Origin: Acidobacteriota bacterium | Lineage (GTDB): Bacteria; Acidobacteriota; Terriglobia; Acidiferrales; UBA7541 | Direction: 5' to 3' | Length of the DNA stretch: 35,910 nt | Assembly: GCA_028877145.1 (NCBI GenBank) | Contig: JAGWOX010000009.1 | Span: forward strand, 1-35,910 | Part shown: piece by piece, positions 3,335-20,734 of the stretch | How positions within the stretch are numbered: the first letter of the stretch is position 1 | Layout: every line of letters begins with the position of its first letter | The notes under the pieces: model-generated | Told to the model about the DNA's origin: nothing | Database searches by the model: none | What the model saw: the letters and a program-made list of their open reading frames with translations, nothing else | Program-made: the position numbers and the translations under genes

Positions 3335-3361
3335 CCACGGTCAGGACAACACTGACCGTGG
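3335..3361. repeat. Palindromic intergenic element, family A copy 1
   Basis: CCACGGTCAG-gacaaca-CTGACCGTGG: perfect 10-bp arms, 7-nt loop, followed by CTACC; begins 4 nt after the stop of the upstream CDS. Confidence 0.8.
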
Positions 3362-12168: not shown

Positions 12169-13338
12169 CTAGTTAGGGCGGTCGACCACTAGCCTTCTGG
12201 CGTAGTGGCCCGGCGCAAATCGGTCCCCCACCCACTCGAAAGCAGGACCGCTCCAGTCCCAGCCCGACGATTCCACCTCGAAAGTCCCTGGGGCCACCGC
12301 CCTGCGGACCCACGTCTTGTGGTGTCCGGATGGGTTCGCCACCTGAACGACGGGCGCGCGTGGCGAGAGGAAGACCACCGTCACGGGGGGAAGCGAGTCG
12401 CCGCTCTGGGCTCTGACGTACGACCGAATCCGGGTATTTTGTTGGGGGAGGAACGGCCAGTTGCGGTCGACACGCTCGGAGGGCAGCGCCGCCACCAGGA
12501 TGAGCATCGGGCCAGCCTCGGGGACGCCGTCCTTGCTAGCCGGGTAGAAATCGATCCACCTACTGGCTAACTGCGCGAACCATTGCGTAACCGCGGCGTC
12601 CGCGGAGTTCTCCACATTTACCTCGGACGGCGCGCCGTTCTGGTCGACTATGACCTCCGCGAGGAGCAGGTCGATGACCGGCTGCTTTGCCCGGGTCACC
12701 TGCGGTCCGAGCACTATTCTGGCCGCCTGGTCTGCGGTCCAGTTTCCGTATGGGAAAATGGTTGCGGGTACTCGAATGGGTACCGACCCTTCGGGCAGTG
12801 CCTCGCCGTTCGGCTCACCTGAACGCACGAGGCCCACCACTACCTCGCTTGGCCGCGTGGCCGGGAACATACCGTCGGCCACTGAGACCAGCGTGCGCGT
12901 CTCCCTGGGGGGGATCGCAGCATTACTGTGCCGTTGTAGGTCCCAGGCGTCAGGGACCGAGAATAGCAGGGAGAAGCATTTCCGCCCAGAGGCGTCATAA
13001 TAGTTTGCTGCGAATACGGCTCTGTCGAGGACGCTGTCGGACGCGTTCCGCACATTGAGGTATGCGGTCGTTCCGAGAATCTGCTCTTGCAGGGCCGCGC
13101 CCTCGATCGTCCACCACGGGCCGACGCTCGACCGTGTGCTCACGCGAAGCGCGATCCTTACGGGCATCGCTTGGCTGGCAGCCGGCCTCGCGCGGGAGAG
13201 GAGCAACGGACCGGGAAGGAGGAACGCGAGCGTGACGACCATTGCAGCCCCGGAGAGGCACATGTATCCCCAGGCAGCGAAGGCGCCTCCGCCGTTCCTC
13301 GACGAGAACGGATCATGATCTCGCATGGGTGCGCCCAT
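12169..13338 (-). CDS. Membrane-anchored extracytoplasmic protein of unknown function
   Basis: N-terminal TM (GYMCLSGAAMVVTLAFLLPGPLLL) then a long soluble domain with no family I recognise. Start codon is 1 nt after the stop of the preceding gene (TAG-T-ATG). Confidence 0.7.
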   Translation of the reverse strand: MGAPMRDHDPFSSRNGGGAFAAWGYMCLSGAAMVVTLAFLLPGPLLLSRARPAASQAMPVRIALRVSTRSSVGPWWTIEGAALQEQILGTTAYLNVRNASDSVLDRAVFAANYYDASGRKCFSLLFSVPDAWDLQRHSNAAIPPRETRTLVSVADGMFPATRPSEVVVGLVRSGEPNGEALPEGSVPIRVPATIFPYGNWTADQAARIVLGPQVTRAKQPVIDLLLAEVIVDQNGAPSEVNVENSADAAVTQWFAQLASRWIDFYPASKDGVPEAGPMLILVAALPSERVDRNWPFLPQQNTRIRSYVRAQSGDSLPPVTVVFLSPRAPVVQVANPSGHHKTWVRRAVAPGTFEVESSGWDWSGPAFEWVGDRFAPGHYARRLVVDRPN

Positions 13339-13339
13339 A

Positions 13340-15667
13340 CTAATTGCTCGGACAGACGACGGTTCCCGACACGGTCTGCGAGACGGCCGAACTCGTGGAA
13401 TAGAATTTTAGGTTCATGGTCAGGCTAAATACGCCTCCGTTGTTGCTGGCATCCGGAGGGCCTGCGGTGTAGGATGCCGTGCATTGGGGCCCGAGTCCGT
13501 TCCCGAAGTTATAGCTCATCCCGTCTGGGTGAACCTCGGCTGTTCCTGTAGGGTCACCCGGGTACTGACCGCCGGTGAATGAGCAGCTTGACTGGCTGGC
13601 GTCAACCGAACAGCCTGAGGTGATGTTGGTCGCGGTGAACACCTGAGAGTTGTCGGTCAATGCATCGCACGTCTGGGCGTAAAGGGTGTCCTTTGGTCCC
13701 AGGGTGAAGCCGCAGACGTTTAGGGCGGCACTGTTGGCAAATTGGTTGAAATTGCAGACCAAGAGCGTACCGCAGACCTGCCCGGCCTCTTGGTCCTCGA
13801 TGGAAGTGCCGATGGACGTGTTGCCGGGGGTGTAGGCGTTCACCGTGCCGCCAGAGACAGTGGCGATTGATGTGTTCCCGCTCCTCCAGCTTGCCGAACC
13901 GGTCACGTCGTTCTGAGTGCCGTCGCTCATGTTTTCCTTGGCGGACATGTAGCAAACTTCCAAGGTGGGGCACTCGGTCGGGTCCGCTAGCAGGTCGAGG
14001 CTGACCACGCCGTAACAGCAGATGCAGCCCTCACAGCAGGTGCCCATTTGGGCGTTGTATTGGCCCGTGCTCACGACGAGGTTTATCTGCTGGCGGGGTC
14101 CTTGGGCGCCGGAGAACATGGCGCTGCCTTCATTGGGGCCTGGTGGCGTCGTGTCCCCGTCGGCGTCCGGCTGCTGCTTGGCGATCAGTTGGGCCATGTC
14201 GATTGTTTGCGTTTCGCCGGGCGTCAGGTGAATTGGCAGGGTGTAGCGACCTGAGGAACTGCCGAAAGTGAAGGTTGCCGACACGTCTTCGGCCGTTCTT
14301 CCCGAATTCCAGAGCGAGAACATGGTGTCGTCGCCGTTTCCGACGACCCAGAAGGGTGATTCCTTGGCCCATGTTTGATGCGCAATAGTCGGGGAAACCT
14401 CGAAAACGTAGTTTCCCGACTGGTCGACGCTGCCCACGGCTGCAACCAAGTCGCCCCACCTTCCCTGCCATGAGAAGGCGAGGGTGATAGCGCCATCAAA
14501 GCCCGCGAGTCCTGCCGAATCCAGGAGGGGCCTCATGGAAATCCGTCGCGACTCAAACGCAGCGAGAGCCGGGACGTGAAGAGCCACGCCTTCGGCCGGG
14601 CCGCTGGCTTTATAGACTGTCGCAAGCACCGGAAGGCTCACCGCCCCCGTGTTGCGCAGAACGACATAAGGCAGGAACCGCGTGGTGGCCGGAAACCCCA
14701 TGAAGGAGGGCTGCTTGCCCATGAGCACTCCGGCGCTGGCCAAGCGCATCGGCCCCGGTGTTCCTGCGTGCCCACCGGGGATCACAAATCGCATTGTTGC
14801 CGAGAAGCCATTTGCAGGGTTCATCAGGCCGCCGGCCAGGCTGATGTCCGAGGGCTGGCCCTTAAACTGGACTTGCACTCCCCCCGCTGCGTCTGGGCCG
14901 CGGCTGTGGCCCGGCAAAAGCGACTCCAGGGACAGGAGATGGGTGGCGTGGGATGCCAAGCTCAGGTCTTGCGACATCGAGGGGGACCCTGAGTTGTCCG
15001 AGGCTGTAACCGTCACGTTGCGCGGCGTGGCCGTGTTGTTCGTCGCCGCGACGAAACCCTGCGTCCCGGGGTCGTGCATCCACCACAGGCCTTCGACCGT
15101 TTGAGTTGCGGCTTTCCCCGTTTGCGAAGGAAGGAATGGGTAGTCGAACACGAGGCTCTGACCAGAGCTCATTACCTGTATTGATGCGACGGCGACGCCC
15201 GGAGTTCGCCAGAAGTACAGGAGGCTTGCGCTGCCATACTCCGATACGTGCTGGGCAACCGCTGGGGGCGCACTTGCGAGAGCGTCGTTGACGCTCACGT
15301 AGGCAATGCCTCCCGAGGCGAGGTCAATTCCCCGGAGCGGATACTCTGTCCCGTCGGCCATGTAAAGTATGGGAGTCACGTGGAGGGGAGCCACAGACAG
15401 GCCGTTTTTTACCCGGATGGTTGACGAGAAGTCCTGGTCTGTTCGCCAGAAGGTGCTTTGGAGCGCCTGTTGGGGCATGCTAGTGGGCTGCGATGCTATC
15501 GCTTCAAAGGGCCGCGCGTCAGGCGCGGTGGGTGCTGCGCTGTGCAGGGGGAGACGGGTGTCGGTCGGCGTGGTCACTGCGACGCCGAGGGAGTACGCCA
15601 GGAAGGCGAGGACGGGAACTGCGAGGACCGCCAGCGAGGCCGGGTGGCGTCTGGTGCATTGAGCCAT
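13340..15667 (-). CDS. Large secreted protein with Ig-like (BIG2-type) segment and Cys-rich C-terminus
   Basis: AAAGGAG SD upstream of ATG at 15667; signal MAQCTRRHPASLAVLAVPVLAFLAYSLGVAV; BIG2-like SDGTQNDVTGSASWRSGNTSIATVSGGTVNAYTPGNTSI; TCCEGCICCYG cluster. Confidence 0.85.
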   Translation of the reverse strand: MAQCTRRHPASLAVLAVPVLAFLAYSLGVAVTTPTDTRLPLHSAAPTAPDARPFEAIASQPTSMPQQALQSTFWRTDQDFSSTIRVKNGLSVAPLHVTPILYMADGTEYPLRGIDLASGGIAYVSVNDALASAPPAVAQHVSEYGSASLLYFWRTPGVAVASIQVMSSGQSLVFDYPFLPSQTGKAATQTVEGLWWMHDPGTQGFVAATNNTATPRNVTVTASDNSGSPSMSQDLSLASHATHLLSLESLLPGHSRGPDAAGGVQVQFKGQPSDISLAGGLMNPANGFSATMRFVIPGGHAGTPGPMRLASAGVLMGKQPSFMGFPATTRFLPYVVLRNTGAVSLPVLATVYKASGPAEGVALHVPALAAFESRRISMRPLLDSAGLAGFDGAITLAFSWQGRWGDLVAAVGSVDQSGNYVFEVSPTIAHQTWAKESPFWVVGNGDDTMFSLWNSGRTAEDVSATFTFGSSSGRYTLPIHLTPGETQTIDMAQLIAKQQPDADGDTTPPGPNEGSAMFSGAQGPRQQINLVVSTGQYNAQMGTCCEGCICCYGVVSLDLLADPTECPTLEVCYMSAKENMSDGTQNDVTGSASWRSGNTSIATVSGGTVNAYTPGNTSIGTSIEDQEAGQVCGTLLVCNFNQFANSAALNVCGFTLGPKDTLYAQTCDALTDNSQVFTATNITSGCSVDASQSSCSFTGGQYPGDPTGTAEVHPDGMSYNFGNGLGPQCTASYTAGPPDASNNGGVFSLTMNLKFYSTSSAVSQTVSGTVVCPSN

Positions 15668-15836: not shown

Positions 15837-16520
15837 TCAGGGGACAAAGCCGACCGGCTGGCGTGGCGGATCGGCCGTTCCGCTTCCCTTTTTCGGGCCG
15901 GTGGGGGCAAGCAGCGCCTCTGAAATCTTATGCCTGCTGTCTATCCCCAGCTTGAGGAAGATGTTGCGGAGGTGAAATTTCACGGTTCGCTCACTGATGC
16001 CGATTTCAGGAGCGATCTCCTTGTTGGTTAGACCGCGTTTTACGAGTTCCGCGATCCGAGCCTGCTGAGGGGTGAGAAGTATGCCATCTCTCGCTCCTTC
16101 GCCGCTTCGCGAGAATGCGTTTTCTTTTTTGGTGGAAAGGTCGTCGGCGCATATCCAAATGTGGCCGCCCCAAACATCGTGAACGGCTGCGGTGAGATGC
16201 GCTTCCAGCTTGTCAACGGGGAGATATCCGTGCGCTCCTTGGCGGAGCAGCGAAAGAAGCTGTCCCCCTGAAAGCCGTGATCCTACAAGAAGGAGCTTGG
16301 CCCGAGGAAAAGACCGTCGCAGCGAGCTAAGATGAGCGCCGGCGGCTGCCGACGGTTCCAGCGGCAAGAGGAAGAGCAGGGGCCTCTTCTGCCAGGCGCC
16401 GCGGGCATTGGTTGGGATCGAGGGCAGCACCCTAACGAGATTGTCCTTCCGCAGCAGATTTTGGAGATAGCTATTCGCTATAGGGTTGCGGCTGAGAATG
16501 CAAACTGGAATCGTGGACAC
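15837..16520 (-). CDS. LuxR/NarL-type regulator with degenerate (aspartate-less) receiver domain
   Basis: HTH: LTPQQARIAELVKRGLTNKEIAPEIGISERTVKFHLRNIFLKLGIDSRHKISEALL. N-terminal REC-like fold MSTIPVCILSRNPIANSYL...LLFLLPLEPSAAAG...GAHGYLPVDKLEAHL without the acidic pair or phospho-Asp. True start uncertain (GTG 16520 versus an ATG at 16555 out of frame by one). Confidence 0.88.
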   Translation of the reverse strand: MSTIPVCILSRNPIANSYLQNLLRKDNLVRVLPSIPTNARGAWQKRPLLFLLPLEPSAAAGAHLSSLRRSFPRAKLLLVGSRLSGGQLLSLLRQGAHGYLPVDKLEAHLTAAVHDVWGGHIWICADDLSTKKENAFSRSGEGARDGILLTPQQARIAELVKRGLTNKEIAPEIGISERTVKFHLRNIFLKLGIDSRHKISEALLAPTGPKKGSGTADPPRQPVGFVP

Positions 16521-16529
16521 CCGATTGCA

Positions 16530-16539
16530 GGGGGGGGGG
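16530..16539. repeat. 10-bp G/C homopolymer (C10 on coding strand) at 5' end of LuxR-type gene
   Basis: ccgattgcaGGGGGGGGGGcgaagcc read directly from the sequence. Confidence 0.95.
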
Positions 16540-16862
16540 CGAAGCCTCGAATCATTTGTCCACCTCGTGACGAGCTGGCTTCGGGCCGCTTTCGGGCTCT
16601 CCTATGTGGCTCGCGAACTGGCTAGCGATACGGGGCGCGGGTGCTCATACTCGGTTCACCGAACAGACGCAGATGAGCCACGTCTTGTGAAGCATACAAA
16701 GCAAGTTCGGCGCGCACGTTTCCGAACCCCGTCGCGGGTGCCAAATTTATATGCCTGAATCTGCGGAGAGTCAAGGCCTAGGCAGAAGTCGGCGGAGCGG
16801 GGAACGCGGGCCAAGCGGGGAGTGATCGGGCGCAAGATTCGACGGCCAGCGGCACGCGACTA

Positions 16863-16889
16863 CTACGGTCAGGACTGCACTGACCGTGG
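16863..16889. repeat. Palindromic intergenic element, family A copy 2
   Basis: ct-ACGGTCAG-gactgca-CTGACCGT-gg followed by CTACC; 8-bp perfect arms, 7-nt loop; 19 nt from the stop of the adjacent minus-strand gene. Confidence 0.75.
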
Positions 16890-16907
16890 CTACCGGGGCA
16901 CTTTGAA

Positions 16908-17744
16908 TCAGGAGTCGAGGTATTTGATGAAGACGACTTCGTTTTGTGCTTCGTTGTAGAGCAGTTCGTCGACCATCGCGCGCACGAGGAGCAGGCCGAA
17001 GCCGCCCGGGCGCAGACCTTTTTGCTCCCGCACTTCGAGATGCTTGGTCGGTTCGTCGGGCGGATTGTCGAGGGCGGAGTGCTCGAGTTCCTCGAAACGG
17101 AATCCGCCGCCGGGATCGGCGATGCGGTAGAGGAGCATGCGACGGGCGCGCAGGTACGAGATGCGAACCTTCTGGTTGGGGTCGAGATGGCCTCCCCATT
17201 CGATGGCGTTGTTGAGCAGTTCACGGAAGGCCTGGCCCACTTGATCGCGAACCTCCGGAGGGAGATCGGCTTTGAGATGTTCCATGAATCCGACGATGCG
17301 CGAGGCGGCCTCGAGATCGCAGGGAACGATCAGTTCCACCCAATTGGGTATGGCCGAGACAATCTCGATCGGCGGCGCGGCGCCGCTGGAATTGACGGCG
17401 ACTTCCACGAGGCGTAACAGCTCCTTCGGGTCGACCGGTTTGCGAATGTAGTGATAGGCCTGTTCGCGGATGGAGGCGAGCACGGTTTCGGGCGTGTCGT
17501 CGGAGGTGAGAACGATAACGCGCGGACCTTGGGCGCGGTCGCGGAGCCACGCCAACAGCTCGAAACCATTGACACGCGGCATCCAGATGTCGGTGAGCGC
17601 CAGATCGAAGCGTTCTATTTTCAGGCGGTCGATGGCGGCGCGGCCATTGGCGGCGACGGTGACGGAGAATCCGGCGGCCTTGAGCGTGCCCCGGAGAAAC
17701 TGGCGCGTGGTCGTGTCGTCTTCGACGATGAGAATCTTTTTCAT
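16908..17744 (-). CDS. Response regulator with C-terminal RsbW-like HATPase (anti-sigma/serine kinase type) domain
   Basis: MKKILIVEDDTTTRQFLRGTLKAAGF...DLALTDIWMPRVNGFELL...VIVLTSDD...YIRKPVDPKELL (complete REC); then QAFRELLNNAIEWGG...RMLLYRIADPGGGFRFEEL...GLRPGGFGLLLVRAMVDELLYN (HATPase N and G boxes). Confidence 0.9.
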   Translation of the reverse strand: MKKILIVEDDTTTRQFLRGTLKAAGFSVTVAANGRAAIDRLKIERFDLALTDIWMPRVNGFELLAWLRDRAQGPRVIVLTSDDTPETVLASIREQAYHYIRKPVDPKELLRLVEVAVNSSGAAPPIEIVSAIPNWVELIVPCDLEAASRIVGFMEHLKADLPPEVRDQVGQAFRELLNNAIEWGGHLDPNQKVRISYLRARRMLLYRIADPGGGFRFEELEHSALDNPPDEPTKHLEVREQKGLRPGGFGLLLVRAMVDELLYNEAQNEVVFIKYLDS

Positions 17745-20734
17745 TGCCCTCGTTTTTTGTCGCGGGGCGCGCGGCGGCGGGCGCCCGGTTTCTCGAAATG
17801 TGCGCTCAGGGCTTCAAGACGATGGTTCAGCGCGGCCAGTTCCTTTTTGAGCTTGGCATTCGGTTCGCCAACTCCCTCGAGCTGGTTGGCGCGGGCGGAG
17901 ATTTCGATCCGGCGAGCCAGATCGGGCACGGCGCCGGGGCCGAAGACGCCAGCCGCTCCCTTGAGTGTGTGTGCTGCGACCGCCAGGGCCTCGGAATCTT
18001 GCCGGCCAATGGCGCGGGCGATGCGTGCGAGCAACGTGGCCGCATCCTTCTGAAACGTGTGAACCAGCGAGCGGAAGAATTGGGGATTCCCACCGAAGCG
18101 TTCGAGAAGCGCGGCGGCTTCGCCGGTGAGCGCGGACTCGGAGGCCGCCCGCGGCGGCAGGGGCTCACCGCGCCGCACGAGGGATTCGATCGTGCGGAAG
18201 AGGTCGCTGGCCTGAATGGGCTTCGAGACGTAAGCGTCCATGCCGGCTTCGAGACACCGCTCGCGGTCGCCGCGCATTGCGTGCGCGGTCATCGCGACGA
18301 TCGGGAGATGCCGCGTACCCGAGCTTTCCATCTGGCGAATAAGGCGAGTGGCCTCCAGGCCGTTCAACCCCGGCATTTCGACGTCCATCAGCACGAGGTT
18401 GAAATTCTGATGGCGGATGGCCTGGAGCGCGGCGGCGCCGGTTCGGACGGCGGTGGCGCGGTAGCCGCGTTTCTCCAGCAGGAGCACGATCAATTTCTGA
18501 TTCATGGGATTGTCTTCGGCCACCAGGATGCTTAGCGATGTGGCGGCCGGCAACTGGTCGACGCGGCCGCGGGCAGCGAGGCTGGGTGCGCCGGCGGGCG
18601 CGAGGCTCGATACAATCGCATTCGACAAGTCGGAATGCTTTACCGGTTTCGTGAGGCAGGCGGCGACGCCGAGTTTGCGGGCGCGAGCGACTTCGGCAGT
18701 GTTTACGCTCGAGGTCAGCAGGATAATGGCCGCGCTCCGATGGCGCGGGTGTTTGCGAACGCGACGAACGAAGCCAAGGCCGTCCATGGAAGGCATTGGG
18801 GAATCGACCAGCAACAGGGCAAAGGGGCGGCGCGCGCGTTCGGCGCGGTCGATGCGGCGGAGCGCTTCCGCCGGGCCCGCGGCCACCGGTTTCATGCTCC
18901 ATCCGCTCAGCATTTCCTTGAAAATGCGGCGATTCGTTGCGCTGCTGGTGACGACGAGGACGGGAAGGCCGCGCAAACTTTCAGGCAGAACCGGCCGAGC
19001 GGGCTTGGCGCTTTCGGATTGGACTTCGAAACGGGCGGTGAAATGAAAAATGCTCCCGTGGCCGACACGGCTTTTCAGCCAGATGCGTCCGTTCATCAGG
19101 GAAACGAGCTGGGAGGCTATGGTGAGGCCGAGGCCGGTGCCGCCATAGCGGCTGGTGGTGGAGGCGTCCGCCTGAACGAAAGAGCCGAAGATCGTTTTCT
19201 GTTTGTCGGCCGGGACGCCGGGGCCCGTGTCCGAGACGGCGAAGTGGAGTGTGACGCCGTCAGGCTCGGAGGATTCCATCTCCACGCGGAGGAGGATTTC
19301 GCCGCGATCCGTGAATTTGATGGCGTTGCCCGCCAGATTCAGGAGGATCTGGCGGAGACGCAAGGCGTCGCCGACGAGCGCGTCGGGAACCTCCTTGTGA
19401 ATGTAGCAGGAGAGTTCGAGATGCTTTTGCTGGGCGCGCACGGCGAGTGATTTCACAGCGCCTTCGACGGTGTCGCGCAAGCTGAAGGGAGCGCGGTCCA
19501 GTTCGAGCTTGCCCGCCTCGATCTTCGAGAAGTCGAGGATGTCGTTGAGAAGGGAAAGGAGGGAACTGGAGGATTCGGCGACGATCTCGAGGAATTCGCG
19601 CTGCTCGCCGGTGAGGGGAGTGGCGAGGGCGAGCTCGGTCATGCCGGTGATCGCGGTTATCGGCGTGCGGATTTCGTGGCTCATACGAGCCAGGAAATCG
19701 CTCTTGGCGCGCGTGGCGCGCTCGGCCTGGCGCCTGGCGAGATTGAGTTCACGAATCAGGCGCGTGAGCCGGTCTGCGTTGCCTTCCTGCTCACGGCGCG
19801 CCTCCTCGAGCGAAGCGGCATATTCCTTGATCTCGCGCTGGGTGCGGCGACGATCGACGAACTGGCCGATCTGGTTGCCGGCGGCGCCGAGCATCGCGAG
19901 CAGGTTTTCGTCCCGAGCGCGGAGGTCGCGCGAGAAGAATTCCATGATGCCGATCACGGCATCACCGACGGGGATGGGGAAGGCGAAGACGCTGCGCAGG
20001 CCGGCGCCGACAGCGGCGGCATCGCGGGGTGAATCGACCACCTTCGACAGATCGTCGATCCACAACGGCTGGCCTTCCGACCAGACGCGGCCGGGAAATT
20101 CTTCACCGGAGCCAAACGCTGCCCGGCGGGTTTCCGCTTCAAACGAAGACGCGGTGGCGTTGACGGCGGCTTGCATTGCTTCGCAGCGCAATACAGCGGC
20201 GCCGGGATCGGCCCGCCAGAAGACGCCGGCTTCGAGATCCAGAGTGTCGCAGAGGGCGCGCAGGATCCGCGGCGCGGCGTCAGCGAGGGACGGGGAATCC
20301 TCAAGCACTCGCGTGAGCGAGTAGCCGGCGGCCAGGCGCTGCTCGGCCTGTTTGCGGGAGGTAATGTCGCGCGCAACGGCGTAGATTTTTTGCCGTTCGG
20401 CCGCCGGGCTCGCGCTCCACATCAGCCAACGATAGGAGCCGTCACGGGAACGGTAGCGATTTTCAAAGGAGATGGTCTGGCTGCCGTGGACCACCTTTTC
20501 GGCCTCCGCCATGGTGGCGGCACGATCGTCGGGATGAACGAAGTCGGTGTAGGGAACGCTCATCAACTCTTCGATGGAATAGCCGAGAGCTTTTTCCCAG
20601 GCGGGGTTCAGTTGCTTGAAAGAGCCGTCGAAGCCGGCGATGCAGAGCAGGTCGAGCGAGAGATGGAACAGGCGCTCGAAGTCCTCACTCTCCGTGCGCT
20701 CCGGCGAATCGGCGGATTGACGAGTCTTTGACAT
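17741..20734 (-). CDS. Hybrid sensor histidine kinase (PAS-GAF-HisKA-HATPase-REC-REC-HPt)
   Basis: PAS FERLFHLSLDLLCIAGFDGSFKQLNPAWEKALGYS; H-box FLARMSHEIRTPITAITGMTEL; N/G boxes NLAGNAIKFTDRGE, DTGPGVPADKQ, GGTGLGLTIASQLVSLM; REC2 SILVAEDNPMNQKL...LVLMDVEMPGLNG; HPt VAAHTLKGAAGVFG. Stop overlaps start of the next gene (ATGA). Confidence 0.95.
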   Translation of the reverse strand: MSKTRQSADSPERTESEDFERLFHLSLDLLCIAGFDGSFKQLNPAWEKALGYSIEELMSVPYTDFVHPDDRAATMAEAEKVVHGSQTISFENRYRSRDGSYRWLMWSASPAAERQKIYAVARDITSRKQAEQRLAAGYSLTRVLEDSPSLADAAPRILRALCDTLDLEAGVFWRADPGAAVLRCEAMQAAVNATASSFEAETRRAAFGSGEEFPGRVWSEGQPLWIDDLSKVVDSPRDAAAVGAGLRSVFAFPIPVGDAVIGIMEFFSRDLRARDENLLAMLGAAGNQIGQFVDRRRTQREIKEYAASLEEARREQEGNADRLTRLIRELNLARRQAERATRAKSDFLARMSHEIRTPITAITGMTELALATPLTGEQREFLEIVAESSSSLLSLLNDILDFSKIEAGKLELDRAPFSLRDTVEGAVKSLAVRAQQKHLELSCYIHKEVPDALVGDALRLRQILLNLAGNAIKFTDRGEILLRVEMESSEPDGVTLHFAVSDTGPGVPADKQKTIFGSFVQADASTTSRYGGTGLGLTIASQLVSLMNGRIWLKSRVGHGSIFHFTARFEVQSESAKPARPVLPESLRGLPVLVVTSSATNRRIFKEMLSGWSMKPVAAGPAEALRRIDRAERARRPFALLLVDSPMPSMDGLGFVRRVRKHPRHRSAAIILLTSSVNTAEVARARKLGVAACLTKPVKHSDLSNAIVSSLAPAGAPSLAARGRVDQLPAATSLSILVAEDNPMNQKLIVLLLEKRGYRATAVRTGAAALQAIRHQNFNLVLMDVEMPGLNGLEATRLIRQMESSGTRHLPIVAMTAHAMRGDRERCLEAGMDAYVSKPIQASDLFRTIESLVRRGEPLPPRAASESALTGEAAALLERFGGNPQFFRSLVHTFQKDAATLLARIARAIGRQDSEALAVAAHTLKGAAGVFGPGAVPDLARRIEISARANQLEGVGEPNAKLKKELAALNHRLEALSAHFEKPGARRRAPRDKKRGQ

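Follow-up and report, generated by a model that had tools for sequence, protein, structure and literature searches.

A C10 tract ahead of an acidobacterial LuxR-type regulator: a probably neutral 5'-UTR homopolymer upstream of a probable GTG start without a Shine-Dalgarno site

Introduction

The described systems closest to the locus discussed here are found in Bordetella pertussis. Its bvgS gene carries a C run within the coding region, for which C6/C7 variants have been observed, and the genes fim2, fim3 and fimX have poly-C tracts in the promoter (PMC1891110).

The present locus comes from the 3.88-Mb draft genome of an Acidobacteriota bacterium (349 contigs, 91% complete) and lies in a stretch of 35,910 nucleotides, referred to below as the window. 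Here, a run of ten cytosines on the minus strand (16530–16539; G10 on the plus strand) is located 10–19 nt 5' of the GTG codon that opens the gene of a LuxR/GerE-type regulator. As in bvgS (PMC1891110), a C run is thus tied to a signal-transduction regulator and one-base changes shift a frame. In contrast to bvgS, the C10 precedes a usable start and is not known to vary. Like fim2, fim3 and fimX, the regulator gene has a C run on its 5' side, but the run does not fall within a promoter: the one promoter-like site detected lies about 207 nt upstream of it.

A tract with the geometry of the fim2/fim3 type exists elsewhere in the same genome. The other C10 (contig C243, 2526–2535; L053, L057) sits inside the spacer of a promoter-like site, TTGACA-17 nt-GATACG. 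The ATG that follows 42 nt further on has the Shine-Dalgarno (SD) sequence GGAGGTG and opens the gene of a secreted protein with 827 residues or more. Judged by geometry, it would be a better candidate for phase variation than the C10 of the regulator.

Layout of the site

Read on the minus strand from 16580 to 16505, the site has the order CACGAGGTGGACAA-ATG(16555)-ATTCGAGGCTTCG-C10(16539-16530)-TGCAATCGG-GTG(16520). A sequence-only reading had described it in this way and had taken the ATG for a start that either a phase-variable switch or a one-base miscall puts out of frame. Our re-reading agrees with the description. The ATG (16553–16555) is preceded at 4 nt by GAGGTGG (16560–16566), which includes a 6-nt SD match, and the GTG has no such site; the A of the ATG and the G of the GTG are 35 nt apart. 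With ten cytosines the ATG is off the regulator frame and opens a frame of 25 codons, MIRGFAPPPAIGCPRFQFAFSAATL followed by a stop 40 nt beyond the GTG (16478–16555). This short overlapping ORF is a possible but unsupported uORF. Only C8 or C11 (± 3n) puts the ATG in the regulator frame, as the frame arithmetic confirms. The peptide originally given for C11 was one proline too long; it reads MIRGFAPPPCNRVST..., with three prolines instead of four. Upstream of the GTG the regulator frame stays open for 27 codons, which contain no further ATG, GTG or TTG.

The regulator

From the GTG, the regulator (15837–16520, minus strand) comprises 227 residues and combines a degenerate (pseudo-) receiver with a helix-turn-helix (HTH) domain. 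The latter is recognized as a GerE domain over cut-off (PF00196, E 2.7e-15, residues 149–198), which makes the protein a member of the NarL/FixJ (LuxR/GerE) family of an atypical receiver type. Pfam's receiver model (Response_reg, PF00072) finds no match in the protein. The receiver fold is instead apparent in the AlphaFold2 prediction (mean pLDDT 76.5): counted from the GTG, strand 1 occupies residues 4–8, and a complete (βα)5 unit is followed by the HTH. The best fold matches of this predicted structure, LiaR, ChrA, VraR and RcsB, are full-length regulators, and the overall fold is RcsB/LiaR/VraR/NarL-like. Unlike typical NarL/FixJ members, the regulator lacks the conserved acidic pair and the phospho-acceptor Asp, with SRNP and LLFLLP in place of DDHP and the conserved VxVxD. 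Its paralogues in the same genome, among those read, have ordinary DDHP receivers.

Homologues are present in most genomes of the class. The sequence-only reading had proposed a comparison with sister genomes, but none of the other four genomes in the genus contains the locus, and a search of genome contigs for orthologues returned nothing beyond distant HTH or LuxR-type matches. The best homologues in the family, order and class are only 27–35% identical to the regulator. At this level of identity, conservation of the tract cannot be read from them, although they are the nearest outside the genus.

Start codons among homologues

Which of the two codons starts the regulator? To this end, starts were compared in 55 distinct homologues from related genomes, of which the 27 closest form a subset. 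Twelve of these 27 (16 of the 55 overall) have a start 2–4 residues before strand 1, the position that the GTG has here, although some of the twelve also have other candidate starts. A start 7–12 residues before strand 1 is seen in 15/27 and 41/55, and one at 13–17 residues in only 8/55. The ATG at 16555 would add 15 residues to the regulator with C11 or 14 with C8. In ten of the closest 27 homologues (19/55 overall), a stop occurs less than 15 codons upstream of strand 1; with the frame closed over this distance, these ten are unable to carry a 15-residue extension. The closest resemblance at the start is found in L024, VTS-ISVRVFASHPVAAAQY with a GTG start, and in L102, MSS-ITVRIFASHP, compared to VST-IPVCILSRNPIANSY here. 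The N-terminal strings most alike are VTSISVRVFASHPVAAAQY (L024, GTG) and MSSITVRIFASHP (L102), next to VSTIPVCILSRNPIANSY in the regulator.

An SD at any likely start is missing in 35 of the 55 homologues and in 10 of the closest 27, so that starts without this site are common in the family. Acidobacteria genomes contain on average 13% leaderless genes (PMC3160421), which makes SD-less starts normal for an acidobacterium. Seven homologues (L005, L012, L013, L017, L022, L015 and L025) have a TANNNT box 7–9 nt before an SD-less start, which suggests leaderless transcripts in the subfamily. A leaderless start at GTG 16520 itself was rejected, as no box such as the TAGGCT or TATCTT of the homologues is found 7–9 nt upstream.

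How unusual are the tract and the SD-ATG pair?

The C10 is the sole C/G run longer than seven in the window, and the entire draft genome has four tracts of C9 or more, two of them C10. As background we used about 200 kb of stretches from the same genome, picked around tracts and REPs and not at random. There, runs of 5, 6 and 7 drop from 174 to 21 to 2 per 200 kb, and the C10 therefore exceeds simple decay. The other three C9+ tracts are likewise located upstream of or between genes. Tracts of C10 or more, typically a few per genome, are present in 38 of 61 related genomes. Together with the positions of the other C9+ tracts this means that no special function is required to account for the one studied here. 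Slippage is known for long G/C tracts, and ten cytosines suffice for it.

The pair of SD and ATG is less exceptional. In this genome, 0.45% of 50-nt windows hold a 6-nt SD with an ATG, 3.8% a 4-nt SD with an ATG, and 10.9% a 4-nt SD with any start codon. The tract is unusual, and the SD-ATG pair is so to a mild degree only. Still, chance would put a 6-nt SD, ideally spaced, this close in only about 0.5% of cases per 50 nt, which counts against the GTG. Over the 200 kb, 6-nt SDs precede ATGs that open frames of less than 50 codons 11 times, compared to 10–21 times in simulations. At this chance level such pairs are by themselves no signal of real starts. The SD as an argument for the ATG, on which the sequence-only reading had relied, is thus weakened, also in view of the many SD-less homologues.

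Promoter and leader

A promoter scan found a sigma-70-like site, TTGACT-17 nt-TATAAA, at 16746–16774 on the minus strand with 10 of 12 matches; a site with at least 10 matches occurs in 0.8% of shuffles. It escapes a strict scan, since the −10 element has an A at position 6. Transcription from 16774–16746 would leave about 184 nt of 5' UTR ahead of the ATG or about 219 nt ahead of the GTG. With the likely promoter some 220 nt upstream, leaderless initiation, the usual cause of a missing SD, is inapplicable to that transcript, a further point against the GTG.

The tract is flanked by an imperfect inverted repeat (16513–16563, minus strand; 7+5+3 pairs), the loop of which holds most of the cytosines. 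This hairpin is ordinary (z −1.6), with 28% of 51-nt windows equally stable. An RNA switch in the UTR was considered and rejected, as no Rfam family matches the 5' UTR and its fold stability does not rise above that of shuffles (z 0.3). The tract as a promoter spacer was likewise rejected: no −35 match lies above it, and TGCAAT would sit 4 nt from the GTG.

Weighing the explanations

Taken together, we consider it probable that the regulator is translated from the SD-less GTG at 16520 and that the C10 is a rare, probably neutral and slippage-prone homopolymer of the 5' UTR. The GTG is favoured because both the homologue starts and the predicted fold, a complete domain, fit it. We rate this reading no higher because SD-like sites are present at the starts of L003, L004, L006, L024 and L087, all among the closest relatives, whereas the GTG here has none. 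The mRNA would probably begin at the promoter, ribosomes would initiate at the GTG without a canonical SD site, and the C10 run would form part of the untranslated region without a role in switching. The SD-ATG upstream is then most likely a chance match and opens at most a short, non-functional frame. Tract length may vary in the population, which would leave the protein unaffected and tune translation at most slightly.

The alternatives mostly start from the ATG, and tract length alters the reading frame only if this codon is the start, the tract being outside a promoter spacer. In a phase-variable switch, slipped-strand mispairing would bring the regulator in frame at C8 and C11 and out of frame at C9 and C10. 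In its favour, an SD-ATG stands directly above a C10, a length that no other C run of the genome exceeds, tracts of this length are commoner than shorter runs predict and prone to slip, and bvgS provides the precedent of a regulatory gene as target (PMC1891110). The extension of 14–15 residues is, however, no feature of the homologues, the SD-ATG frequency is at chance level, the locus is missing from the sister genomes, and the GTG alone yields the whole domain, so that C10 is not obviously an OFF state; we regard a switch as unlikely. The same extension weakens the idea of a true or ancestral C11 (or C8) that was miscalled during assembly or lost to a fixed frameshift of one base, which we find about as improbable. 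It would turn the SD-ATG into an ordinary start, and length errors do fall at homopolymers, here in a draft of many contigs; yet a short-read consensus, should one underlie the assembly, usually gets a C10 right. Very doubtful, finally, is a real uORF of 25 codons, or ribosome or polymerase slippage on the C run that feeds the regulator as a programmed frameshift. SD-ATG and slippery run are in the right order and a −1 (or +2) slip would land in the regulator frame, but no homologue has the arrangement, the ordinary hairpin offers no stimulatory structure, and the distance of the short-ORF stop past the GTG makes coupling awkward. Of the sequence-only reading, then, the geometry, the arithmetic and a tract long enough to slip hold, while the ATG as a real start on the strength of its SD is doubtful. 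As a choice between switch and miscall it is not established and probably wrong.

Genomic neighbourhood

Downstream of the regulator, two minus-strand genes (13340–15667 and 12169–13338) have no Pfam or NCBIfam match. The former encodes a secreted protein of 775 residues with an SD at its ATG (15667). They are followed by genes for a DsbA-like protein and a di-haem oxidoreductase. On the other side, also on the minus strand, 16908–17744 and 17741–20734 overlap by 4 nt. Together, these genes account for a hybrid histidine kinase with PAS, GAF, two receiver and Hpt domains and for a receiver-HATPase_c_2 protein, the latter without a match at E<=1e-20 in any of the other four genomes of the genus. 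The gene content, including a PF25183 outer-membrane protein, looks acidobacterial.

A REP-like palindrome, GGTAGCCACGGTCAG-N7-CTGACCGTGGGCCT with a GTAG head, lies at 16865–16894 (minus strand) and again at 3335–3361, and recurs on contigs C6, C19, C24, C72, C81, C124 and others of the same genome. Places with perfect arms number about 25 in this genome, two in one same-genus genome and none in 39 other relatives. The genome also has nine matches to Y1 transposase (PF01797), and the one at contig C6:5441 has a REP some 1.5 kb away. Palindromes and transposases probably constitute a REP/RAYT system.

Implications

It is improbable, in our estimate, that this free-living bacterium has a contingency-locus system in which slippage of a 5' C tract toggles a pseudo-receiver LuxR regulator adjoining a large secreted-protein gene, beside a second C10 in a promoter spacer. 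If true, it would place such a system outside the usual host-associated bacteria, and a tract that switches the regulator would add a phase-variable transcription factor to a lineage for which the literature searched reports none. If the tract is neutral, the locus would illustrate that, where SD-less starts are common, an SD-ATG beside a homopolymer can be mistaken for a contingency locus.
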